From contig NC_059362.1 of assembly GCF_019703515.2 (NCBI RefSeq), forward strand, positions 29,366,326 through 29,430,325: 64,000 nucleotides of DNA. The letters run 5' to 3'. The DNA comes from Myxocyprinus asiaticus. Taxonomy: Eukaryota; Chordata; Actinopteri; Cypriniformes; Catostomidae. Below the pieces are notes generated by a model. That model had not been told where the DNA came from, made no database searches, and was given only the letters and a program-made list of their open reading frames with translations. Positions 16,928 through 59,899 of the stretch are shown here, one piece after another. The translations under genes and the position numbers were made by a program. Every line of letters begins with the position of its first letter. Positions within the stretch are counted from its first letter, which is position 1.

Positions 16928-18527
16928 CAGTTGTGCTCAAAAGTTTGCATACCCTTGGAGAATTGGTAATATATGTACCATTTTTAAGGAAAACATGAGT
17001 GAGCAGGCAAAACACATTTCTTTTATTTCTTATGGGATTCATATTCAACTGTAGGTTATAACAGAATGGCACAATCATAAAACAAAACATGGCAACAATG
17101 AAAAAAATGAAATGACCCCTGTTCAAAAGTCTGCATACCCTTAGTTCTTAATACTGTGTATTGCCCCCTTTAGCATCAATGACATTGTGCAGTCTTTTAT
17201 AATAGTTGTCTATGAGGCCCCAAATTCTTGCAGGAGGTATAGCTGCCCATTCGTCTTGGCAAAATGCCTCCAGGTCATGCAAAGTGTTTGGTCGTCTTGC
17301 ATGAACTACACGTTTGAGATCTCCCCAGAGTGGCTCGATGATATTAAGGTCAGGAGACTGTGATGGTAACTCCAACAACTGGAGGGTCAACTTGGCCTTG
17401 TGCTTAGGGTCATTGTCGTGCTGGAAAGTCCAAGAGCGTCCCATGCTCAGCTTTCGTGCAGAAGAATGCAAATTGTCTGCCAGTATTTTCTGATAACATG
17501 CTGAAATCATCTTGCCATCAATTTTCACAAGATTCTCCGTGCCTTTAGAGCTCACACACCCCCAAAACATCAGTGAGCCACCACCATGCTTCACAGTGGG
17601 GCTGGTATTCTTTTCACTATAGGCCTTGTTGACCCCTCTCCAAACATAGCGTTTATGGTTGTGACCATAAAGCTCTATTTTGGTCTCGTCACTCCAAATT
17701 AAGTGTGCCAGAAGCTGTGTCAAGGTGTTGTCGGGCATATTGTAACCGGGTTTTTTTGTGGAATTGGCGCAGTAAAGGCTTCTTTCTGGCAACTCGACCA
17801 TGCAGCGCATTTTTGTTCAAGTATCGTCGTATTGTGCTCCTTGAAATAACCACACCGTCTTTTTCCAGAGCAGCCTCTATTTCTCCTGAGGTTACCTGTG
17901 GGTTTTTCTTTGTATCCCGAACAATTCTTCTGGCAGTTGTGGCTGAAATCTTTCTTGGTCTACCTGACCTTGGCTTGTTATCAAGAGATCCCCAAATTTT
18001 CCACTTCTTAATAAATGATTGAACAGTACTGACTGGCATTTTCAAGGCTTTGGATATCTTTTTATATCCTTTTCTATCTTTATAAAGTTCCATTACCTTG
18101 TTACACAGGTCTTTTGACAGTTCTTTTCTGCTCCCCATGGCTCAGTATCTAGCCTGCTCAGTGCATACACGTGAGAGCTAACAAACTCATTGACTATTTA
18201 TACACAGACACTAATTGCAATTTAAAAAGCCACAGGTGTGGGAAATTAATATTTAATTACCATTTACACCTGTGTGTATCACCTTGTGTGTCTGTAACAA
18301 GGTCAAACATTCAAGGGTATGTAAACGTTTGATCAGGGCCATTTGGGTGATTTCTGTTATCATTATGATTTAAAAAGGAGCCAAACAACTATGTGATGAT
18401 AAAATGCTTCATATGATCACTATCCTTAAATAAAAGACAGTTTTTTTGCATGATCAGTCATATTTTCAAAATCAATGCCAAAATTTCACAATTTCTGCCA
18501 GGGTATGCAAACTTTTGAGTACAACTG
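16928..18527 (-). mobile_element. Tc1 transposon, 1.6 kb, complete ends
   Basis: The termini CAGTTGTGCTCAAAAGTTTG (left) and the inverted CAAACTTTTGAGTACAACTG (right) are flanked by TA. Both ends and one transposase gene are present, so this is a full-length copy. It sits directly against the MITE ending at 16923, and the TATA between them supplies both TA targets. Confidence 0.93.
17148..18138 (-). pseudogene. Tc1 transposase, broken by one frameshift
   Basis: The enzyme would bind the inverted repeats and cut and paste the element at TA. The N-terminal half (18138 down to about 17720) begins MGSRKELSKDLCNKVMELYK and has the paired-like helix-turn-helix DNA-binding region, the GRPR linker (RSGRPRK) and a second HTH. 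The C-terminal half is in another frame (about 17705 down to 17148) and carries the DDE catalytic domain: WSDETK (first D), FQHDNDPKHKA (second D) and SPDLNIIEPLW (E), with the spacing of DD34E Tc1 enzymes. The frame change lies at about 17700-17760, between ARQHLD and LIWSDE. No other lesion was seen, so the copy is fairly young. Confidence 0.92.
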
Positions 18528-19631: not shown

Positions 19632-20025
19632 TCACTTGACATTGTGTCAATGTAGTGATATTAGGGGTCACTCTTGGGAGCCCGAGACATCTCTGGTCTT
19701 TGATAAAAGGCCAATGAAAATTGGCGAATGGTATTTGTATACCACTCCCCCGGACATACAGGTATAAAAGGAGCTGGTATGCAACCACTCATTCAGATTT
19801 TCTCTTCGGAGCCGAAAGGTCGATGTTTACTGAGCTGACTGTTCATTCACCTCTGCTGGATTTGACGGCGCATTTCAGCGGCTTCTGCCTCCTCTGCACT
19901 GGTGCACTGAGAGAATGCCCCTGGGAGTATATTTAAGATATATATATAATTATATATAAGAGAGTATATTTCTCTAAAAGAGCGGCACCCACAGAACGTC
20001 TTTTTAAAGAAGCATCTTTTTAAAG

Positions 20026-21138
20026 ATGCCTTTCCGTTTGTGTGTTATTCCTGGTTGCGGTCGTTACCTCTCAACTTTGGATGGTCATGATCGCTGTCTT
20101 TCGTGTCTGGGCGTGACTCACGTGGAGACAGCGTTCGTGGATGGATCATGTACTCACTGCGAGAATATGACCATGGCAACGTTGCGGCTTTTCTTACGAA
20201 AGCAAGCCACCGCAGCGGCTCCCCACCTCGATCCTTCTACCTACGGGTATGAGGCCAGCGCGGCTAGCACTGGGGGCGATTTGAGGACCCTAGTGGGACC
20301 ACCTCCGCCGGGTATCCCCCCACGGACCTCCCATTCCCCATTACGCTCGTCTGCGACGATCGGGCTTCCGGATGAGTCCGCCGGCTCGCCTCATGGCGAA
20401 TTCGACCTCTTGTTCGGAGCCCGCGAAGCTGATGAGCTCTTGAGCGCAGCATCGGAGAGCGGGCTCGTCCAGTTGGACGCAGAAGCCTCAGCTGGGCGCC
20501 CCCCCTCGGGGACGGTTGCCCAGTCACAGGCTGATGCAGAAATGACGGACATGCTTTCCCTGTTGGCCAAAGCCTACAGTGCCGCTGGACAAGCCGCCTC
20601 CGCCCTGCATGCCATGGCTCTCCTGCAGGTCCACCAAGCCAATGTGCTAAAAGAACTGCACGAGGGTAGTTCCGCCCCAGATTTAATGCAGGAGCTGCAC
20701 TTGGCGACCGACCTCGCTCTCTGGGCGACGAAGGTCACGGTGCAGTCTCTCGGGCGGGCGATGTCAACCTTAGTGGTCCAGGAGCGCCACCTTTGGCTCA
20801 ACCTGGTCGAGATGGATGAGGCCGACAAGTCACGGTTCCTTGCTGCCCCTATCTCCCAGGTTGGCCTATTCGGCGACACCGTTGAGGACTTTGCCCAGCA
20901 GTTCTCGACGGTGAAGCAGCAGACGGAGGCTATCCGGCACTTACTGCCCCGGCGCAACTCAAGATCCCGCACCCTGCCTGCTCGTCGCCAAGGGCGTCCC
21001 CCTGCGGTGACTGCACCAGCTCCACCGCAGCCTACCCCTTCGGCCCGGCCCCAGCGTGGAGCCCACCGCAGGAAGCAGACGCCACCCGTCTCACGGCCGG
21101 CTGCCAAGAACCCATGGAAGGCTTCGAAGCGCCTCTGA
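20026..21138 (+). CDS. DIRS-B gag-like protein, intact 370-residue frame
   Basis: Begins MPFRLCVIPGCGRYLSTLDG. The N-terminal 60 residues hold clustered cysteines and histidines (CVIPGC, HDRCLSCLG, CTHC), a zinc-binding-like module. The middle (residues 170-300) is helical and alanine/leucine rich (SLLAKAYSAAGQAASALHAM). The C-terminal 60 residues are basic and proline rich (RRNSRSRTLPARRQGRPP), typical of RNA-binding gag tails. The frame is undamaged, unlike the downstream enzyme domains. GC content is well above the surrounding intron. The product would package element RNA. Expression is doubtful because the element lacks reverse transcriptase. Confidence 0.75.
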   Translation: MPFRLCVIPGCGRYLSTLDGHDRCLSCLGVTHVETAFVDGSCTHCENMTMATLRLFLRKQATAAAPHLDPSTYGYEASAASTGGDLRTLVGPPPPGIPPRTSHSPLRSSATIGLPDESAGSPHGEFDLLFGAREADELLSAASESGLVQLDAEASAGRPPSGTVAQSQADAEMTDMLSLLAKAYSAAGQAASALHAMALLQVHQANVLKELHEGSSAPDLMQELHLATDLALWATKVTVQSLGRAMSTLVVQERHLWLNLVEMDEADKSRFLAAPISQVGLFGDTVEDFAQQFSTVKQQTEAIRHLLPRRNSRSRTLPARRQGRPPAVTAPAPPQPTPSARPQRGAHRRKQTPPVSRPAAKNPWKASKRL

Positions 21139-21710
21139 GACGGAGGTTCCGGCCATTGATCCAGGGCAAGCACATGTTAGTTCGGACAGACAACACGGCA
21201 ATGGTAGCATATGTCAACCGTCAAGGCGGTCTGCGCTCCCGTTGTATGTCACAACTCGCCCGCCGTCTCCTCCTCTGGAGACAGCAGCACCTCAAGTCGC
21301 TGTGAGCCACTCACATCCCGGGTGACCTCAACACTGCAGCGGACGCACTGTCACGGCAGGTTACCCTCAGGTGTGAGTGGAGACTCCACCCTCAGGTGGT
21401 CCAGCTGATCTGGAGTCGATTCGGAAAGGCACAGGTAGACCTGTTTGCCTCCCAAGAATCCTCCCACTGCCTGCTCTGGTACGCCCTGACTGAGGCACCT
21501 CTCGGTATAGATGTGCTGGTACACAGGTGGCCCCCTGGACTGCGCAAATATGCATTTCCCCCAGTAAGCCTACTTGCACAGACCTTGTGCAAGGTCAGGG
21601 AGGACGAGGAGCAGGTCCTCCTGGTAGCACCCTACTGGCCCACCCAGACATGGTTCTCGGACCTCACGCTCCTCGTGACAGTCCCCCCCGGCGAATTCCC
21701 CTGAGGAAGG
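21114..21710 (+). pseudogene. DIRS-B RNase H domain, frameshifted
   Basis: Right after the gag stop come RRRFRPLIQGKHMLVRTDNT and AMVAYVNRQGG (the RNase H strand with the DNT motif). A frame break is followed by HIPGDLNTAADALSR, then VDLFASQESSHCLLWYAL and LLVAPYWPTQTWFSDL. This is the conserved RNase H end of DIRS/Ty3-group polymerases. The catalytic aspartates in TDNT and AADALSR are visible. No reverse transcriptase (no PKKDG or YxDD) lies before it, so about 1-2 kb has been lost between gag and RNase H. Confidence 0.82.
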
Positions 21711-21779
21711 ACCTTCTTTCTCAGGGATGGTGCACCATCTGGCACCCACGACCAGACCTCTGGAATCTCCATGTCTGGC

Positions 21780-22840
21780 CCCTGGATGGGACACGGAAGA
21801 CCTAAGCGGTCTACCACCCGCGGTGGTAGACACGATCACTCAGGCTAGGGCCCCCTCTATGAGGCGCCTGTATGCCTTTAAGTGGTGTCTGTTCGCTAAG
21901 TGGTGTTCTTCCCGACGGGAAGACCCCCAGAGATGCGCAGTTGGATCGGTGCTTTCCTTCCTGCAGGAGAGGTTGGAAGGGCGGCTGTCCCCTTCCACCT
22001 TGAAGGTGTATGTAGCTGCTATAGCGGCACACCACGACACAGTGGACGGTAAGTCCTTAGGGAAGCACGACTTGATCATCAGGTTCCTGAGAGGCGCCAG
22101 GAGGCTGAATCCCTTCAGACCGTGCCTCGTTCCCTCATGGGACCTCCCTGTAGTTCTTCAGGGTCTACAGAGAGCCCCCTTTGAGCCTTTCAGCTGAGCT
22201 TAAGGCACTCTCTTTGAAGACTGCCCTCCTGATTGCGCTCCCTTCCATCAAGAGGGTAGGAGACCTCCAAGCGTTCTCTGTCAGCGAAACGTGCCTGGAG
22301 TTTAGTCCGGGCTACTCTCACGTGATCCTGAGACACTGACCGGGCTATGTGCCAAGGTTCCTACGACCCCTTTTAGGGACCAGGTGGTGAACCTGCAAGC
22401 GCTGCCCCAGGAGGAGGCAGACCCAGCCCTGACGTTGCTGTGTCTGGTGCACGCTTTACGCATCTATTTGGATCGCACGCAGAGCTTTAAAGTCTCTGAG
22501 CAGCTCTTTATCTGCTTTGGTGGACAGAGGAAAGGAAGCGCTGTCTCCAAGCAGAGGATCGCCCACTGGCTCATTGACACCATAACTATGGCATATCACG
22601 CCCAGGACGTGCCGCCCCCTGGTAGGGCTACGAGCCCATTCTACCAGGGGTGTAGCGGCCCCCTGGGCCTTGACCAGGGGCGCCTCTCTAACAGTCATTT
22701 GCAGAGCAGCGGGATAGGCAACACCCAACACCTTTGCGAGGTTCTACAACCTCCGGGTGGAATCGGTTTCATCCCGTGTAGTGGCACTCACAAGCAGGTA
22801 AGTCCGGGACAGCCGGCCGGGTGTATCACTTGCGCATAGC
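21780..22840 (+). pseudogene. DIRS-B tyrosine recombinase, broken
   Basis: The tyrosine recombinase inserts the circular DNA intermediate. The core-binding half is open to 22197 (ARAPSMRRLYAFKWCLFAKW, LSPSTLKVYVAAIAAHHD). After a frameshift the catalytic half reads ALLIALPSIKRVGDLQ (first catalytic Arg), then HSTRGVAAPWAL (the H-x-x-R pair) and FARFYNLRV (the Tyr nucleophile). A stop replaces the Trp before ATPNTF, and at least two frame changes occur (about 22195 and 22620). All catalytic residues are still recognisable. Confidence 0.85.
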
Positions 22841-27170: not shown

Positions 27171-27360
27171 ACGATGTGTTTTTTGGGTTTAACCTCCTGA
27201 GAACAGAGCGTGACTGCTGTGTGCATTTTTCATTTCCCTTTTTGATTTGTAACTAGTAGCACCTAATAAACACGCAAAAAATAAATAATTCTAGAGCAAA
27301 TAGTTTTCCTAAAAATGCACAATGGGACTAAGTTGTGAAATTTTAAATAATATCAAGCTG

Positions 27361-27788
27361 GGGGACTGTGTAGCTCAGCGAGTAAAGACACTGACTACCA
27401 CACCTGGAGTTGTGAGTTCAAATCCAGGGCACGCTGAGTGACTCCAGCCAGGTCACCTAAGCAACCAAATTGGCCCAGTTGCTAGGGAGGGTAGAGTCAC
27501 ATGGGGTAACCTCCTCGTGGTCACTATAATGTGGTTTGCTCTCAGTGGGGTGCGTGGTGAGTTGTGTGTGGATGCCGCGGAGAATAGCGTGAAGCCTCCA
27601 CATGTACAATGTCTCCGTGGTGACACGCTCAACAAGTCATGTGATAAGATGCACGGATTGACATCTGAGACACTGAGGCAACTGAGATTCATCCTCCGCC
27701 ACCCGGATTGAGGCGAGTCACTACGCCACCACGAGGATTTACAGCGTATTGGGAACTGGGCATTCCAAATTGGGCAGAAAAAGGGAGT
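27361..27788 (+). mobile_element. tRNA-derived SINE copy 2 (longest, best preserved)
   Basis: The head GGGGACTGTGTAGCTCAGCG contains the A box, and GAGTTCAAATCCAGG the B box. The body runs CTGAGTGACTCCAGCCAGG, AAGCAACCAAATTGGCCCAG, GGTAGAGTCACATGGGGTAA and CACCCGGATTGAGGCGAGTC, with the tail CATTCCAAATTGGGCAGAAA. The tRNA-like fold is degenerate, so it is not a functional tRNA gene. Confidence 0.88.
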
Positions 27789-30216: not shown

Positions 30217-30492
30217 TAACACCGTGTAACAATTTTTTTTTTTTGTAAGTGTTATTTCCTAATTGCTTATGCCTCAAAAGTATAGAAAATGGCTATTATC
30301 CCCCACAAACTTTGCGTTTGTGACCAGGACAGTGATATGAACATTCCAGATAGATTCAGTGCTGAGTAAACTTGGAGTAACTTCTAGAACTTTCCAGTAA
30401 TATAAATAGTAGTATAAATACAGGGGCCTTAAGCCCACCAGTTCAGTTTAGTTACAGCTGCCTAAGTGGATACATATCTGCATTTTTCTGAG

Positions 30493-31933
30493 ATGGCATC
30501 AAGAGGCTGCAAGCATCCGGCAGACGCATTTTGCCATGTCTGCGGCCAATTTATCAAGACAAGAGAGAAAAAGTACTCTGTGGAAGCATCTGCTAAGATA
30601 TGTGAGGCCTACAAGGCATATTTCAGCATGCCTGTCGGGGATCAAGACAAACCCTGGACCACCTCATTTCACCTGCGAGCACTGCAAAAAAAAACTCTGG
30701 AAGATAATATGGACAATTGTTGCTCGGAATTTTATGATATAAAATTTGTTAATTTTTAAAATTGTAAAACTTTGGGGGGCCTGGGTAGCTCAGTGGTAGA
30801 AGACGTTGGTTACCACCCCTGGAGTTCGCTAGTTTGAATCCCAGTGTGTGCTGAGTGACTCCAGCCAGGTCTCCTAAGCAACCAAATTGGCCCAGATGCT
30901 AGGGAGGGTAGAGTCACATGGGATAACCTCCTCGTGGTACATTCTCGGTGGGGCGCGTGGTGAGTTGGGCGCGGATGCCGCGGTGGATGGTGTGAAGCCT
31001 CCACATGCGCTATGTCTCCGTGGCAACGCACTCAACAAGCCACATGATAAGATACGCAGATATAAAAAATATTTCATATATGAAAAATGTTGCAAGAATC
31101 TCTTTCACATTAGTCATGGGTGAAATAAATGTATTTTTGTAGGATGGTACAGCGGGGAAAAGAGAGCCATGAAGTTCGCTATCCCAAGAATTTTGCGGGA
31201 ACCCACTGACCACTCAAGCAACTGCTACTTCTGCATGGTGGACCCTTACAAACGTCGGACTGGCAAGAATGCACCTGCTATCATGTATCTGGACCTTCCT
31301 TCATCCATCACCCCGGTACCACACTGCCATGAGCTCCCTGTACCCACTCCTCCGGAGAGAGAGCAGCCGTCTTTAGAAGCGAGCAGCAAGTCAGAGAGCA
31401 AGGAAGATGTTGTAGATCCAGATGACAATTTCAGAGGTGGAGCTGAGGAGAGAAACCCGTACTACCCCAACCAAAAAGACCTCAACGACTTGATTAGAGA
31501 TCTTGGTCTCACCAAGTCCAATGCTGACCTTTTGACGTCTAGACTCAAGCTGTGAAACTTGTTGGATGAAAGTGTTCAAGTTGCAGATCAGAGGAAGCTT
31601 CACCAACCTTTTTTCAGCTTCTTCACCCGTCAAGATGGGCTCTGCTTCTGCCATAATGTGACCAGTCTGTTCGAGGCAATCGGACTCGCCTGTAACCAGA
31701 ATGAGTGGCGTCTCTTCATTGACAGCTCATCCAGGAGCCTCAAAGCCTAGCTGCTCCATAATGGTAACAAGTACCCATCTCTTCCCCTGGCTCACTCGGT
31801 GCACCTCAAAGAGGATTACAACAGCATCAAGACCTTGCTGGATGCCTTGAAGTATGATGAGTACATTTGGGGGCTGATTTGTGAAAGTGATTTACAGTAT
31901 AAATGTAAATCTCGAAAAACTACTCACTTCTAA
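30493..31933 (+). pseudogene. Uncharacterised transposon protein, N-terminal part, broken
   Basis: The start reads MASRGCKHPADAFCHVCGQF and then PHFTCEHCKKKL after a frameshift, so there are two CxxC-type clusters that could bind zinc. A probable intron runs 30704-31142: joining LE to GWYSGEKRAMKFAIPRIL keeps the frame, the acceptor is TTTTTGTAG, but the donor is AT instead of GT. The next exon has NCYFCMVDPYKRRTGKNAP, a Pro/Glu-rich linker, and YYPNQKDLNDLIRDLGLTKS. It also has DGLCFCHNVTSLFEAIGLAC and KTLLDALKYDEY, with stops after SRLKL and SLKA. A deletion then joins it to IWGLICESDLQ..RKTTHF. No family name is assigned. Confidence 0.72.
30774..31060 (+). mobile_element. tRNA-derived SINE copy 3, inside the transposon intron
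   Basis: The head GGGGGGCCTGGGTAGCTCAG carries the A box and AGTTTGAATCCCAG the B box. The body matches copy 2 to CACATGATAAGATACGCAGA and is 3'-truncated. It lies within the putative intron of copy 1, so it inserted after that element arrived. Confidence 0.85.
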
Positions 31934-32139
31934 ATCTTTTGTAGTCATTTTTTAATTACTTTAGTATACATGTTAATTTGGATTCATATGTTGTTTTTTT
32001 CTGACTTTATGTGAACGGAAAGACACAAATTCACCCGTTTTCTCATTGGAAATAGGTACATTTTCTATATTTTTGAGGCATAAGCAATTAGGAAATAACA
32101 CTTACTACCCAGGAACAAAAATTGTGTTACATAGTGTAA

Positions 32140-41967: not shown

Positions 41968-42301
41968 AAATTTAAAAAAAACACACTTGTAAGGAATTGT
42001 ATGTTACTTGGTTAAAGCCAAGAGGTCTTTGCAGATAAGACCTTGACAGAAGACACTGGATCTAATGACATTTTTCTAACACTGTATAAAAACACGGAAT
42101 GAGCTCTTTGATCGCTGAAAGACGCAGGTGTACAACGCATGTAATGTTTTAACTATACATTTTATGCCCGTTAATGCAAACACTTGTCTTGCCAATGGAA
42201 AGGGCAAAAGTTTCATGTTAGCCCTTGATTGTAGGCTATTTTGTACGAACAGCACCATCTGGCGGCCTAGTCTAAATCAGTTTTTCGATTCCATATTGGT
42301 C
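41798..42301. other. Intergenic stretch with (TAA)n
   Basis: (TAA)n microsatellite at 41930-41962; otherwise nothing seen. Confidence 0.6.
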
Positions 42302-44686
42302 AAATGATAAATCAATTGCTCAATCTGACATCTCAAATGATAAATCAAATACTCCAACTGACATCTCAAATGATAAATCAAATACTCCAACTGACATCTC
42401 ATATGATAAATCAAATACTCAAATTGACATCTCAAATGATAAATCAAATACTCAAACCGACATCTCAAATGATAAATCAAATACTCAAATTGACATCTCA
42501 AATGATAAATCAAATACTCAAACCGACCTCTCAAATGATAAATCAAATACTCAAACCGACATCTCAAATGATAAATCAAATACTTCAACCGACATCTCAA
42601 ATGATCAATCAAATACTCAAATTGACATCTCAAATGATAAATCAAATACTACAACTGACATCTCAAATGATAAATCAAATGCTCCAACTGACATCTCAAA
42701 TGATAAATCAAATACTCAAATTGACATCTCAAATGATAAATCAAATACTCCAACGGACATCTCAAATGATAAATCAAATACTCAAATTGACATCTCAAAT
42801 GATAAATCAAATACTCCAACGGACATCTCAAATGATAAATCAAATACTCCAACGGACATCTCAAATGATAAATCAAATACTCCAACTGACATCTCAAATG
42901 ATAAATCAAATACTCAAATTGACATCTCAAATGATAAATCAAATACTCAAACCGACATCTCAAATGATAAATCAAATACTCCAACTGACATCTCAAATGA
43001 TAAATCAAATACTCCAACTGACATCTCAAATGATAAATCAAATACTCCAACTGACATCTCAAATGATAAATCAAATACTCCAACTGACATCTCAAATGAT
43101 AAATCAAATACTCCAACTGACATCTCAAATGATAAATCAAATACTCAAACCGACATCTCAAATGATAAATCAAATACTTCAACCGACATCTCAAATGATC
43201 AATCAAATACTCAAATTGACATCTCAAATGATAAATCAAATGCTCCAACTGACATCTCAAATGATAAATCAAATACTTCAACTGACATCTCAAATGATAA
43301 ATCAAATACTCCAACGGACATCTCAAATGATAAATCAAATACTCCAACGGACATCTCAAATGATAAATCAAATACTCCAACTGACATCTCAAATGATAAA
43401 TCAAATACTCCAACTGACATCTCAAATGATAAATCAAATACTCAAATTGACATCTCAAATGATAAATCAAATACTCAAATTGACATCTCAAATGATAAAT
43501 CAAATACTCAAACCGACATCTCAAATGATAAATCAAATACTTCAACCGACATCTCAAATGATCAATCAAATACTCAAATTGACATCTCAAATGATAAATC
43601 AAATACTACAACTGACATCTCAAATGATCAATCAAATACTCAAACCGACATCTCAAATGATAAATCAAACACTTCAACTGACATCTCAAATGATCAATCA
43701 AATACTCAAATTGACATCTCAAATGATAAATCAAATACTACAACTGACATCTCAAATGATAAATCAAATACTCAAATTGACATCTCAAACGATAAATCAA
43801 ATACTCAAACAAACATCTCAAATGATAAATCAAATACTTCAACTGACATCTCAAACGATAAATCAAATACTCAAACGGACATCTCAAATGATAAATCAAA
43901 TACTCAAACGGACATCTCAAATGATAAATCAAATAATCAAACTGACATCTCAAATGATAAATCAAACACTTCAACTGACATCTCAAATGATAAATCAAAT
44001 AATCAAACTGACATCTCAAATGATAAATCAAATACTCAAACCGACATCTCAAATGATAAATCAAATACTTCAACCGACATCTCAAATGATCAATCAAATA
44101 CTCAAATTGACATCTCAAATGATAAATCAAATACTACAACTGACATCTCAAATGATAAATCAAATACTCAAATTGACATCTCAAACGATAAATCAAATAC
44201 TCAAACAAACATCTCAAATGATAAATCAAATACTTCAACTGACATCTCAAACGATAAATCAAATACTCAAACGGACATCTCAAATGATAAATCAAATACT
44301 TCAACTGACATCTCAAATTATAAATCAAATACTCAAACGGACATCTCAAATGATAAATCAAATAATCAAACTGACATCTCAAATGATAAATCAAACACTT
44401 CAACTGACATCTCAAATGATAAATCAAATACTCAAATTGACATCTCAAATGATAAATCAAATAATCAAACTGACATCTCAAATGATAAATCAAATACTCA
44501 AACAGACATCTCAAATTATAAATCAAATACTCAAACAGACATCTCAAATGATAAATCAAACACTTCAACTGACATCTCAAATGATAAATCAAATACTTCA
44601 ACTGACATCTCAAATGATAAATCAAATACTTCAACTGACATCTCAAATGATAAATCAAATACTCAAACTGACATCTCAAATGATGT
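42302..44686 (+). repeat. 33-bp minisatellite, about 72 tandem units
   Basis: The unit CAAATGATAAATCAAATACT plus CAAACTGACATCT repeats without interruption. Variation concentrates in the YYCAAMYGAC part (CTCCAACTGAC, CTCAAATTGAC, CTCAAACCGAC, CTTCAACCGAC, CTACAACTGAC). Because 33 is a multiple of 3 and the unit has no stop in the relevant frames, the plus strand is open for about 800 codons (MINQILQLTSQ repeated). The minus strand also stays open (YLIYHLRCQFE). Openness on both strands from one short unit argues against a protein. A (TG)n tract follows at 44687-44727. Confidence 0.95.
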
Positions 44687-48832: not shown

Positions 48833-48835
48833 TAA

Positions 48836-50229
48836 CACCATGTAACAAAATGTTTTTTGTTTTGTTTTGTTTTTTATTTATTTATTTATATTTTTTGGTT
48901 CCTGGGTAGTAAGTGTTATTTCCTAATTGCTTATGCCTCAAAAGTACAGAAAAATGGCTATTATTCCCCACAAACTTTGCTTTTGTGACCAGGACAGTGA
49001 TATTTTGAAATGCACCTATTTTCCAGAACATTCCAGATAGATTCAGTGCTGAGTAAACTTGGAGTAACTTCTAGAACTTTCTAGAACTTTCCAGTAATAT
49101 AAATAGTAGTATAAATACAGGGGCCTTAAGCCCACCAGTTCAGTTTAGTTACAGCTGCCTAAGTGGATACATAACAAGACCTTGCTGGACGCCTTGAAGT
49201 ATGATGAGTACGGTTGGGAGGTCATAGGAGACTTCAAAATGGTGGCATTCCTGATAGGTCTCCATGGTGGTTTTACAAAGTTTCCCTGCTATCTTTGCCT
49301 TTGGGACAGCAGGGAAGTCAAGGCGCACTACCAGAGGTGGGACTGGCCACAGCAGACCGAGTTCTCTGTGGGGAGGAACAATGTCAAGTGGGAGCCACTG
49401 TTGGACCCCCGGAAGGTGCTGATACCACCACTGCACATCAAATTGGGCCTTATGAAACAATTTTTCAGAGCTCTAGATAAGGAGTCGGCAGCCTTCAAGT
49501 ACCTTCAAGACTTCTTCCCTAAGCTGTCTGAGGCAAAGGTCAAAGCCGATGTCTTCGTCGGACCACAGATAAAGAAGATCCTGGAGTGCAATTCCCTAAG
49601 AAGCTCACTAGCAAGGAGAAAGCGGCTTGGAACAGCTTTGTCGCAGTGGTTCGGGGCTTCCTGGGCAATCACAAGGCCGAAAACTATGTGGAGCTGGTTG
49701 AGACTCTGGTGAAGAACTACGGCAAAATGGGCTGTAGGATGTACCTCAGAGTCCATATCCTTGATGCTCATCTTGATAAATTCAAGGAGAACATGGGAGC
49801 GTACTCGGAGGAGCAAGGCGAGTGCTTCCATCAGGATATACTGGACTTTGAACGCCGCTACCAAGGACAGTATAACGAGAACATGATGGGAGACTACATT
49901 TGGGGGCTGATTCGTGAAAGTGATTTACAGTTTAATCGTAAATCTCGAAAAACTACTCACTTCTAATTCTTTTGTAGTCATTTTTGTATTATTTTAGTGT
50001 AAATACATGTTAATTTGGATTCATATGTTGTTGTTTTTCTGACTTTATGTGAACGAAAAGACACAAATTCGCCCATTTTCTCATTGGAAATAGGTCAATT
50101 CAAAATATCACTGTCCTGGTCACAAAAGCAAAGTTTGTGGGTAATAATAGCCATTTTCTATACTTTTGAGGCATAAGCAATTAGGAAATAACACTTACTA
50201 CCCAGGAACAAAAATTGTGTTACATAGTG
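48836..50229 (+). mobile_element. CACTA-like DNA transposon, copy 2 (keeps C-terminal half)
   Basis: The ends CACCATGTAAC and GTTACATAGTG are flanked by TAA (48833-48835 and 50230-50232). The inverted repeats run inward for about 150 bp: GGTTCCTGGGTAGTAAGTG, CTAATTGCTTATGCCTCAA and TTTGTGACCAGGACAGTGAT are mirrored at 50100-50215. The left repeat has a T-rich expansion at 48849-48897. The 5' noncoding block is shared with copy 1 to GTGGATACAT, after which about 1.35 kb of copy 1 sequence is missing and the frame resumes at KTLLDALKYDEY. Confidence 0.8.
49170..49966 (+). pseudogene. Uncharacterised transposon protein, C-terminal part, one frameshift
   Basis: Frame 1 reads KTLLDALKYDEYGWEVIGDF, KMVAFLIGLHGGFTKFPCYL, CLWDSREVKAHYQRWDWPQQ and PPLHIKLGLMKQFFRALDKE up to KKILECN. 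A 4-base loss then shifts the frame to FPKKLTSKEKAAWNSFVAVV, VELVETLVKNYGKMGCRMYL and YIWGLIRESDLQF. It ends RKSRKTTHF and stop at 49966. The GDFKM...CYLCLWD block (acidic residue, then a CxxC pair) and the later PLHIKLGL resemble the layout of CACTA/EnSpm transposases (GD.K....CPWC...LH...G). That is a resemblance noted from memory, not a tested homology. The last residues match the end of copy 1. Confidence 0.72.
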
Positions 50230-50232
50230 TAA

Positions 50233-51490: not shown

Positions 51491-51842
51491 TTTTTCTCCC
51501 CAATTTGGAATGCCCAATTCCCACTACTTTATCCGGGTGGTGGAGGACAAGTCTCAGTTTCCTCCCCTTCTGAGACAGTCAATCCACGCATCTTGCACAT
51601 GGAGGCTCACACTATTCTTCGAGATCCACGCACAACTTACCACGAGCCCCACTGAGAGCGAGAACCACTAATCGCGACCACGAGGAGGTTACCCCATGAC
51701 ACTCTACCTTCCCTAGCAACCAGGCCAATTTGGTTGCTTAGGAGACCTGGCTGGAGTCACTCAGCACACCCTGGATTCGAACTCGTGACTCCAGGGGTGG
51801 TAGTCAGCGTCAGTATTCGCTGAGCTACCCAGACCCCCCCCC
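51491..51842 (-). mobile_element. tRNA-derived SINE copy 4
   Basis: On the minus strand the head GGGTCTGGGTAGCTCAGCG (A box) and GAGTTCGAATCCAGG (B box) are intact. The body CTGAGTGACTCCAGCCAGG and tail GGGCATTCCAAATTGGGG follow. Best-preserved promoter boxes of the four copies. Confidence 0.88.
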
Positions 51843-54285: not shown

Positions 54286-54363
54286 AGAGCTCCTTGGTTG
54301 AGCGTTCCAATTTCTCCCATTCATTTTAATAAAAGTGGCACATCTCTGCTAAATAATCTCTGG

Positions 54364-54490
54364 TTTGAGTGTTTGATTTATCATTTGAGATGTTTGTTTG
54401 AGCATTTGATTTATCACTTGAGATGTCAGTTGGAGTATTTGATTTATCATTTGAGATGTCAGTTTGAATATTTGATTTATCGTTTGAATT
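54364..54490 (-). repeat. Short inverted array of the 33-bp minisatellite (about 4 units)
   Basis: GTTTGATTTATCATTTGAGA, TGTTTGTTTGAGCATTTGAT, TTATCACTTGAGATGTCAGT and TGGAGTATTTGATTTATCAT are complementary to the main array and carry its typical variants. Confidence 0.92.
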
Positions 54491-58800: not shown

Positions 58801-59253
58801 TCACTGGGTCTTTGCCGCTTGAATTGAACACCAATTAGTGGACACATTCCATTTCAGTGCATAAAGGCATCTCATAGACGGCATTCTAGCAGTCAGTTCT
58901 GGCAGGTTTAGCGCGTTCCGTTCAGGGGCCACACATGCAGGTTCCACAGCTTGGGCTGGGGATGCTAGATTGTGCCCTGCGCTTGAGAGAGTAGATCCCT
59001 CCTCAGCGATATTTCCCATGGAGGGCCGTCCAGAATCTCTATAATTTCTGGAAACCAGGACTGATTGGGCCACTATCGATGCAAACAAATCGCGTGGGTG
59101 GATTGCGATAAGAGTAATAGTTATAAGTAATAATTTGAATGGGAACTTTGCAAGTGCACGATTCAAATGTCTCAGATCTAAAATCGGCCAAAGCCCACCA
59201 TCTTTCTTTGGGACAAGAAAATATTGCTGTAAAACCCTTTGCAGGCTTGACAA
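58801..59253 (-). pseudogene. DIRS reverse transcriptase start fused to tyrosine recombinase scrap
   Basis: LQQYFLVPKKDGGLWPILDL and RHLNRALAKFPFK are the opening RT motif (PKKDG..R.ILDLR.LN). About 70 codons later MPSMRCLYALKWNVSTNWCS matches the recombinase start seen at 21859 (PSMRRLYAFKWCLFAKWCSS). The RT palm, RNase H and the rest are deleted between them. The copy cannot be autonomous. Confidence 0.8.
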
Positions 59254-59899
59254 TCTGGAACAACCTCTATCGCGTTCTTTGCGAGAAGACTGTGTATTTC
59301 AGCTCATAACACCAGTGCATCTTCGGACGGAACCGTGGAAGACAGAACACCACTGAAACGGGGTGGCCAACATGCAAATTGGATCGTATAACCATGTTTG
59401 ATCGTTTTTAGCACCCAGTCGGAAATGCCCGTACGAGCTTGCCACGCATCCACGTAACGGGACAGAGGATGATTTGGTTCATTCATTGTATGATATAATG
59501 CGCCGCTCACCATTGGGAAGTTTGAACAACATTTTGAACAACAATATTCCTTTCCCGACAAACAGCAGTGGGGAAGAGGGGAACAGCATTGTGTGTCTCT
59601 AATCGAGCCTTCTTCAGGACAGGTCCGGAAGGAATGGCGAGCTCTGCATTCCGCTTCATAGCGCTTTTGCTGCACAGGGGTTTTTTTTCCATCGGCACAG
59701 GACTCGCGCTGAGGCGGCTGCCTAGGTTTGGGCTACGGCTTGAGCGGCTTTACCGGCAGTTTGGCAGTGACTTTTGGCAGCGCTGAGGCAGCAGGCGTAG
59801 GGTTTTTAGCCAGACGCTGGCCCGAGACAGAGCGGGAGCGAGCCGGTTGGGATGAAGCACTGCTTCGTTTTGGCATAATATGTCTCAAAGCCTGCGAGT

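Follow-up and report, generated by a model that had tools for sequence, protein, structure and literature searches.

Two internally deleted Merrow-type Chapaev3 transposons with putative heat-shock-type promoter sites in Myxocyprinus asiaticus

Introduction

Chapaev transposons are characterized by CAC/GTG ends and by transposases that carry C(2)C, LH and H(4)H motifs, and the Chapaev3 elements examined duplicate a TWA target located between A and T (PMC4079192). Two Chapaev3 families, Merrow and Garfield, contain two exons; in lampreys, Merrow encodes 78 + 484 amino acids, and Merrow_PM corresponds to Chapaev3-1_PM in Repbase (PMC4079192). The sister lineage of Chapaev is EnSpm/CACTA (PMC12730594). 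In zebrafish, EnSpm is the abundant CMC group, and the same study records a small number of CMC-Chapaev-3 copies (42) in one teleost, apparently medaka, while leaving the zebrafish column blank (PMC4746887), so that Chapaev-3 in teleosts is not new. The main text of PMC4079192 contains no match for Cyprin or Danio as the name of a cyprinid host. Here we analyze two copies of one transposon in a 64,000-nucleotide stretch of the Myxocyprinus asiaticus genome (contig NC_059362.1, positions 29,366,326 to 29,430,325; the whole stretch is referred to as the window). Taken as a whole, the evidence is best explained if both copies are non-autonomous, internally deleted Merrow-type Chapaev3 DNA transposons, an assignment that we consider very probable; the promoter that we propose for the transposase gene is much less certain.

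Results

Two complementary deletion copies with Chapaev3-type ends

The boundaries of the two copies and the flanking duplications are as follows.

30220..32136, + strand: copy 1, attributed to an internally deleted Merrow-type Chapaev3 element from its ends, duplication, match to copy 2 and protein match
30217..30219: TAA target-site duplication, 5' of copy 1, preceded by A
32137..32139: TAA target-site duplication, 3' of copy 1, followed by T
48836..50229, + strand: copy 2, attributed to an internally deleted Merrow-type Chapaev3 element from its ends, duplication and protein match
48833..48835: TAA target-site duplication, 5' of copy 2, preceded by A
50230..50232: TAA target-site duplication, 3' of copy 2, followed by T
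48893..49021, + strand: 5' inverted-repeat arm of copy 2, pairing with 50088-50214 (95% over 129 columns)

Copy 1 starts with CACCGTGTAAC and copy 2 with CACCATGTAAC, and both end with GTTACATAGTG. The coordinates and ends given in a preliminary description of this locus are exact for both copies, and the TAA duplications that it reported flank each of them. In a scan of the window, the end patterns, which are mutual reverse complements, matched twice as five-prime and twice as three-prime ends, in every case at one of these copies, and no third copy was found in the window when each copy was compared with it using BLASTN. Both copies have the 5'-CAC...GTG-3' termini of Chapaev3 and, in the two insertions tabulated, the arrangement A-TAA...TAA-T, in which a TWA duplication has A before it and T after it. 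The first five bases are CACCG and CACCA at the 5' ends and CACTA at the two 3' ends; thus, of the CACTA termini with a 3-bp duplication originally described, the CAC...GTG ends and the duplication stand, and the exact CACTA is limited to two of the four ends.

In the two end regions shared by the copies, 494 of the 510 ungapped columns are identical, with 93 additional gap columns, and this level of agreement suggests that copies 1 and 2 descend from a common, fairly recent ancestor. An inverted repeat of about 150 bp, as first proposed, is present in copy 2, where the 129-column arms are complemented by the outer ends, but is shorter in copy 1, with an ungapped arm pair of only 47 nt. The 3' end of copy 1 tracks that of copy 2 over 78 nt, with a single difference, and then diverges.

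The coding remnants were mapped on P0133, a 562-aa Myxocyprinus asiaticus protein.

30493..30702, + strand: copy 1, transposase exon 1 remnant, residues 1-69, with a short stretch in another frame
30743..31061, strand undefined: short interspersed element (SINE)-type repeat between the coding parts of copy 1, with three more copies in the window
31142..31879, + strand: copy 1, 5' part of exon 2, residues 70 to ~310, with two in-frame stops
31859..31933, + strand: copy 1, last 24 transposase codons and stop, residues 539-562, joined via the internal deletion with TAC microhomology
49176..49963, + strand: copy 2, residues 299-562, with the second conserved Asp, C(2)C, LH, H(4)H and the candidate catalytic Glu

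The halves of the protein retained by the two copies are complementary, as the preliminary description held, and both the overlap KTLLDALKYDEY and the common end RKTTHF were found. The reading as a cut-and-paste DNA transposon present in two complementary deletion copies is borne out. In copy 1, the in-frame stops are located at 31553-31555 and 31748-31750, and the coding interruption sits between residues 69 and 70, not at 78; in copy 2, the reading frame is broken near 49590-49620. The SINE-type repeat of copy 1 is 74-79% identical to 27330-27658, 51600-51839 and 2335-2578, and produced no Rfam match up to E 0.1; a putative tRNA-like head of the four SINE-type copies was read by eye only.

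The catalytic core is incomplete in each copy: of these residues copy 1 retains only the first conserved Asp, and copy 2 has the second Asp, the zinc motifs and the Glu cluster; the Asp codons (31721-31723 in copy 1, 49230-49232 in copy 2) were counted by hand. With part of the core missing in each, neither copy would be able to encode a working transposase. An intact relative encodes a transposase of 562 residues, the DDE core of which is of the RAG1/Transib type. By analogy with the family, such a Merrow-type enzyme would cut at CAC/GTG termini and integrate at ATAAT-type targets, with duplication of TAA. The intact ends of both copies could be moved only by an enzyme encoded elsewhere in the genome. 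The deletions look like the outcome of aborted repair after excision: the joints read from the sequences are simple, copy 1 showing TAC microhomology and copy 2 roughly one filler base, as interrupted repair would be expected to leave.

The transposase very probably belongs with Merrow

Searching with copy 2 retrieved 814 proteins at E up to 0.001, and with a relative as the query, 1641 proteins. Among the best 120 listed for each search, the named matches near the top included many Lethenteron (lamprey) rows and Acipenser (copy 2 query), and further matches came from Phyllobates (frog), Tachypleus (horseshoe crab) and Octopus. Over three window pieces (copy-1 exon 2, copy-2 part a and copy-2 part b), the identity is 88/85/95% to the Myxocyprinus protein and 89/84/94% to P0132, a 484-aa Acipenser protein; two lamprey rows show 89%/85% and 87%/70% over the first two pieces, the third being outside their coverage. 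For the Cotesia and Scirpophaga proteins, which served as stand-ins for Garfield, the values are 52/59/63% and 56/60/68%, respectively. Merrow is delimited by nucleotide identity of at least 80% over at least 300 bp, for which protein identity (84-95% for two rows) was used here as a proxy. In a tree of 18 rows, three insect rows (100/99) are separate from an 11-row group that includes the window rows along with Oratosquilla, Octopus, Tachypleus, Metynnis and Phyllobates; this group is poorly resolved, its support of 93/97 falling short of the 95/80 mark, and neither window row is in a starred set. The broad host spread of the relatives fits the known horizontal transfer of the family.

The residues C336/C339, L384-H385, H493/H498, D263, D317 and E511/E512/E515 are invariant in 18 relatives and are also present in the window pieces; the candidate catalytic Glu is one among E511/E512/E515. 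In a 66-row alignment, L384 and H385 are invariant, and the remaining motif and DDE residues are among those conserved in 90% or more. As anticipated in the preliminary description, this transposase is poorly annotated: six window pieces gave no Pfam match, and the 18 relatives gave only weak ones. A possible zf-AD domain was matched weakly in 5 of the 18 (in P0133, at 18 bits vs the 28-bit cut-off), and the weak matches to GRAS (5 of 18), BIR (2) and DUF2789 (2) were not accepted as real. Sequence searches of PDB produced chance-level matches only (best E 0.5), and a profile search reached E 0.17 at best, with no RAG1/Transib chain. Comparison of the predicted fold points to a RAG1-like DDE fold, with the N-terminal 198 residues barely covered. 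No relative was detected in viral contigs by protein scans with P0198, P0133 and alignment A1 or by a 24-base terminal-repeat pattern, a search that did not reach the published bracovirus Garfield copy, or in genome contigs using alignment A2 and the same pattern.

The window copies resemble Merrow in the CAC...GTG ends, the TWA duplication between A and T, the 562-aa total, the C(2)C/LH/H(4)H motifs and the presence of close relatives in lamprey and sturgeon (PMC4079192). Shortened copies are likewise common to the window and to the fish copies of PMC4079192, but the window copies retain more coding sequence than the 304-833 bp copies of sturgeon, catfish, paddlefish and tuna (Table 1 therein). 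The element is a further member of the known Merrow/Chapaev3 family and, because Merrow-type Chapaev3 was described in 2014 (PMC4079192), the label 'uncharacterised' that it originally received has to be dropped.

Heat-shock-type sites upstream of the transposase remnants

Heat-shock-type units are present near the 5' ends of both copies, together with boxes and initiator-like motifs that were read from the sequence and have a putative promoter role.

30382..30394, + strand: copy 1, three perfect alternating heat-shock units (TTCnnGAAnnTTC)
30401..30420, + strand: copy 1, two TATAAATA boxes (30401-30408, 30413-30420)
30443-30448: copy 1, initiator-like TCAGTT
49021..49033, + strand: copy 2, upstream heat-shock-type site TTCnnGAAnnTTC, next unit GAt; missing in copy 1 (22-nt gap)
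49069..49091, + strand: copy 2, five perfect alternating heat-shock units TTCnnGAAnnTTCnnGAAnnTTC, containing a 10-bp tandem duplication
49098..49117, + strand: copy 2, two TATAAATA boxes (49098-49105, 49110-49117)
49140-49145: copy 2, initiator-like TCAGTT

The binding site of the heat-shock factor (HSF) consists of NGAANNTTCNNGAAN and its reverse complement alternating with a 5-bp period (PMC6927752). All five perfect three-unit matches in the window fall within copies 1 and 2, at the same five places with both pattern spellings, against 0.99 and 0.90 expected, and five matches were reached in none of 100 shuffles with one spelling and in 1 of 100 with the other. When a five-unit pattern was allowed as many as three mismatches, 13 of the 15 window matches were inside the two copies (3.72 expected). 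Among 20,000 dinucleotide shuffles of 48836-49170, a perfect three-unit match occurred in 35, never more than one per shuffle, with four observed; in the same number of shuffles of the copy-1 region, at least one match appeared in 21, with one observed. Several points limit these figures: the heat-shock pattern was picked after the sequence had been seen, a single array that includes the 10-bp duplication accounts for three overlapping matches among the four in copy 2, and the copy-1 site is homologous to this array.

Transcription of the transposase gene probably depended on a TATA promoter, with putative HSF sites located at the inner edge of the 5' repeat and immediately within it. That this was a genuine heat-shock promoter, with two HSF arrays, TATA and initiator driving the Merrow transposase gene, is a tentative proposal that might well prove wrong; the sites are known here from the DNA of the two window copies. 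CACTA elements carry subterminal repeats that bind the transposase, and the main rival to the heat-shock reading is that the repeated TTCTAGAAC units are of this kind and not heat-shock elements. Their location at and just inside the 5' inverted repeat and the 10-bp tandem duplication that they include are compatible with such a role; however, neither copy has a perfect three-unit array on its 3' side (0 and 0), the units lie directly upstream of the TATA boxes and the initiator-like motif, and the alternating 5-bp period matches the definition of the HSF site (PMC6927752), and we consider a transposase-binding function less likely than not.

For the heat-shock reading, a described parallel is Helitron1_CE of C. 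elegans, also a DNA transposon with heat-shock elements, which contains HSF-1 sites and the transposase mRNA of which is up in heat shock (PMC6927752). In contrast to the window element, Helitron1_CE is a rolling-circle transposon with an unrelated enzyme, and binding and induction were measured there, whereas here the sites are recognized from sequence alone. Putative heat-shock elements are also mentioned in the fungal transposons TCN3/TCN12 (PMC12810828). A Chapaev promoter was not found in the text available from PMC12810828 or PMC7922186, the main text of PMC4079192 has no match for 'promoter' or 'heat', and the open-access literature searched yielded no report of heat-shock elements in Chapaev.

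Other repeats in the window

Several repeats outside the two copies were noted. A 33-bp minisatellite of about 72 copies occupies 42300-44684 and is open in two + frames over 830 codons because the length of its unit is a multiple of three; what appears by eye to be the same unit, in the opposite orientation, forms a 3.8-copy array at 54363-54487, 10 kb away. A remnant of a Tc1-type transposase on the minus strand (17148-18141) comprises two overlapping frames with HTH_Tnp_Tc3_2, Sleeping Beauty helix-turn-helix and DDE_3 domains. The long reading frames at 20008-22839 (+) and 58801-59298 (-) were guessed by eye to come from a DIRS-type retroelement; the three pieces scanned had no Pfam match at E 0.01.

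Discussion

The preliminary description assigned this element to a vertebrate lineage of EnSpm/CACTA that has no name yet and would encode a transposase of the TNP2 type. This was a reasonable guess given the sister relationship of EnSpm/CACTA to Chapaev and the abundance of EnSpm among the CMC elements of zebrafish (PMC4746887). The two 3' ends start exactly with CACTA (CACTATG), the duplication is 3 bp long, and EnSpm/CACTA, a sister lineage within CMC(T), shares with the window element the CA..TG ends and the zinc motifs, C(2)C and H(3-4)H in EnSpm (PMC12730594). However, the TAA duplication inside A...T, which follows the TWA rule, the C(2)C/LH/H(4)H motifs, with LH among them, the 562/484 protein sizes and the nearest relatives are those of Chapaev3 and Merrow (PMC4079192). 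The 5' ends are CACCG and CACCA, with CACTA at only two of the four ends, and TNP2 (Transposase_21) is absent both from the six window pieces and from the four weak Pfam families listed for the 18 relatives. Membership in EnSpm/TNP2 was rejected on this last ground, and we regard an EnSpm/CACTA origin as very improbable.

Transib transposons duplicate 5 bp. A Transib or RAG-like identity is more improbable still, with a 3-bp duplication in both window copies, nothing below E 0.17 and no RAG1/Transib chain in the PDB-sequence profile search, and a TWA rule and protein sizes that match Chapaev3 and Merrow (PMC4079192).

The Merrow-type Chapaev3 identification places an unnamed repeat in a family known to move from one animal phylum to another, and the predicted RAG1/Transib-like fold allows the kinship reported between Chapaev and the V(D)J recombinase lineage to be checked at the level of structure. 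The proposed heat-shock promoter is the unexpected part of the finding and is worth following. HSF and its site are widely conserved, so a heat-shock promoter would be functional in nearly every new host and fire under stress. If the sites are real and conserved, they would give a simple reason for the expression of a transposon in very different hosts, and such a promoter, if true, could help explain the spread of Merrow among lampreys, fishes and a dragonfly.
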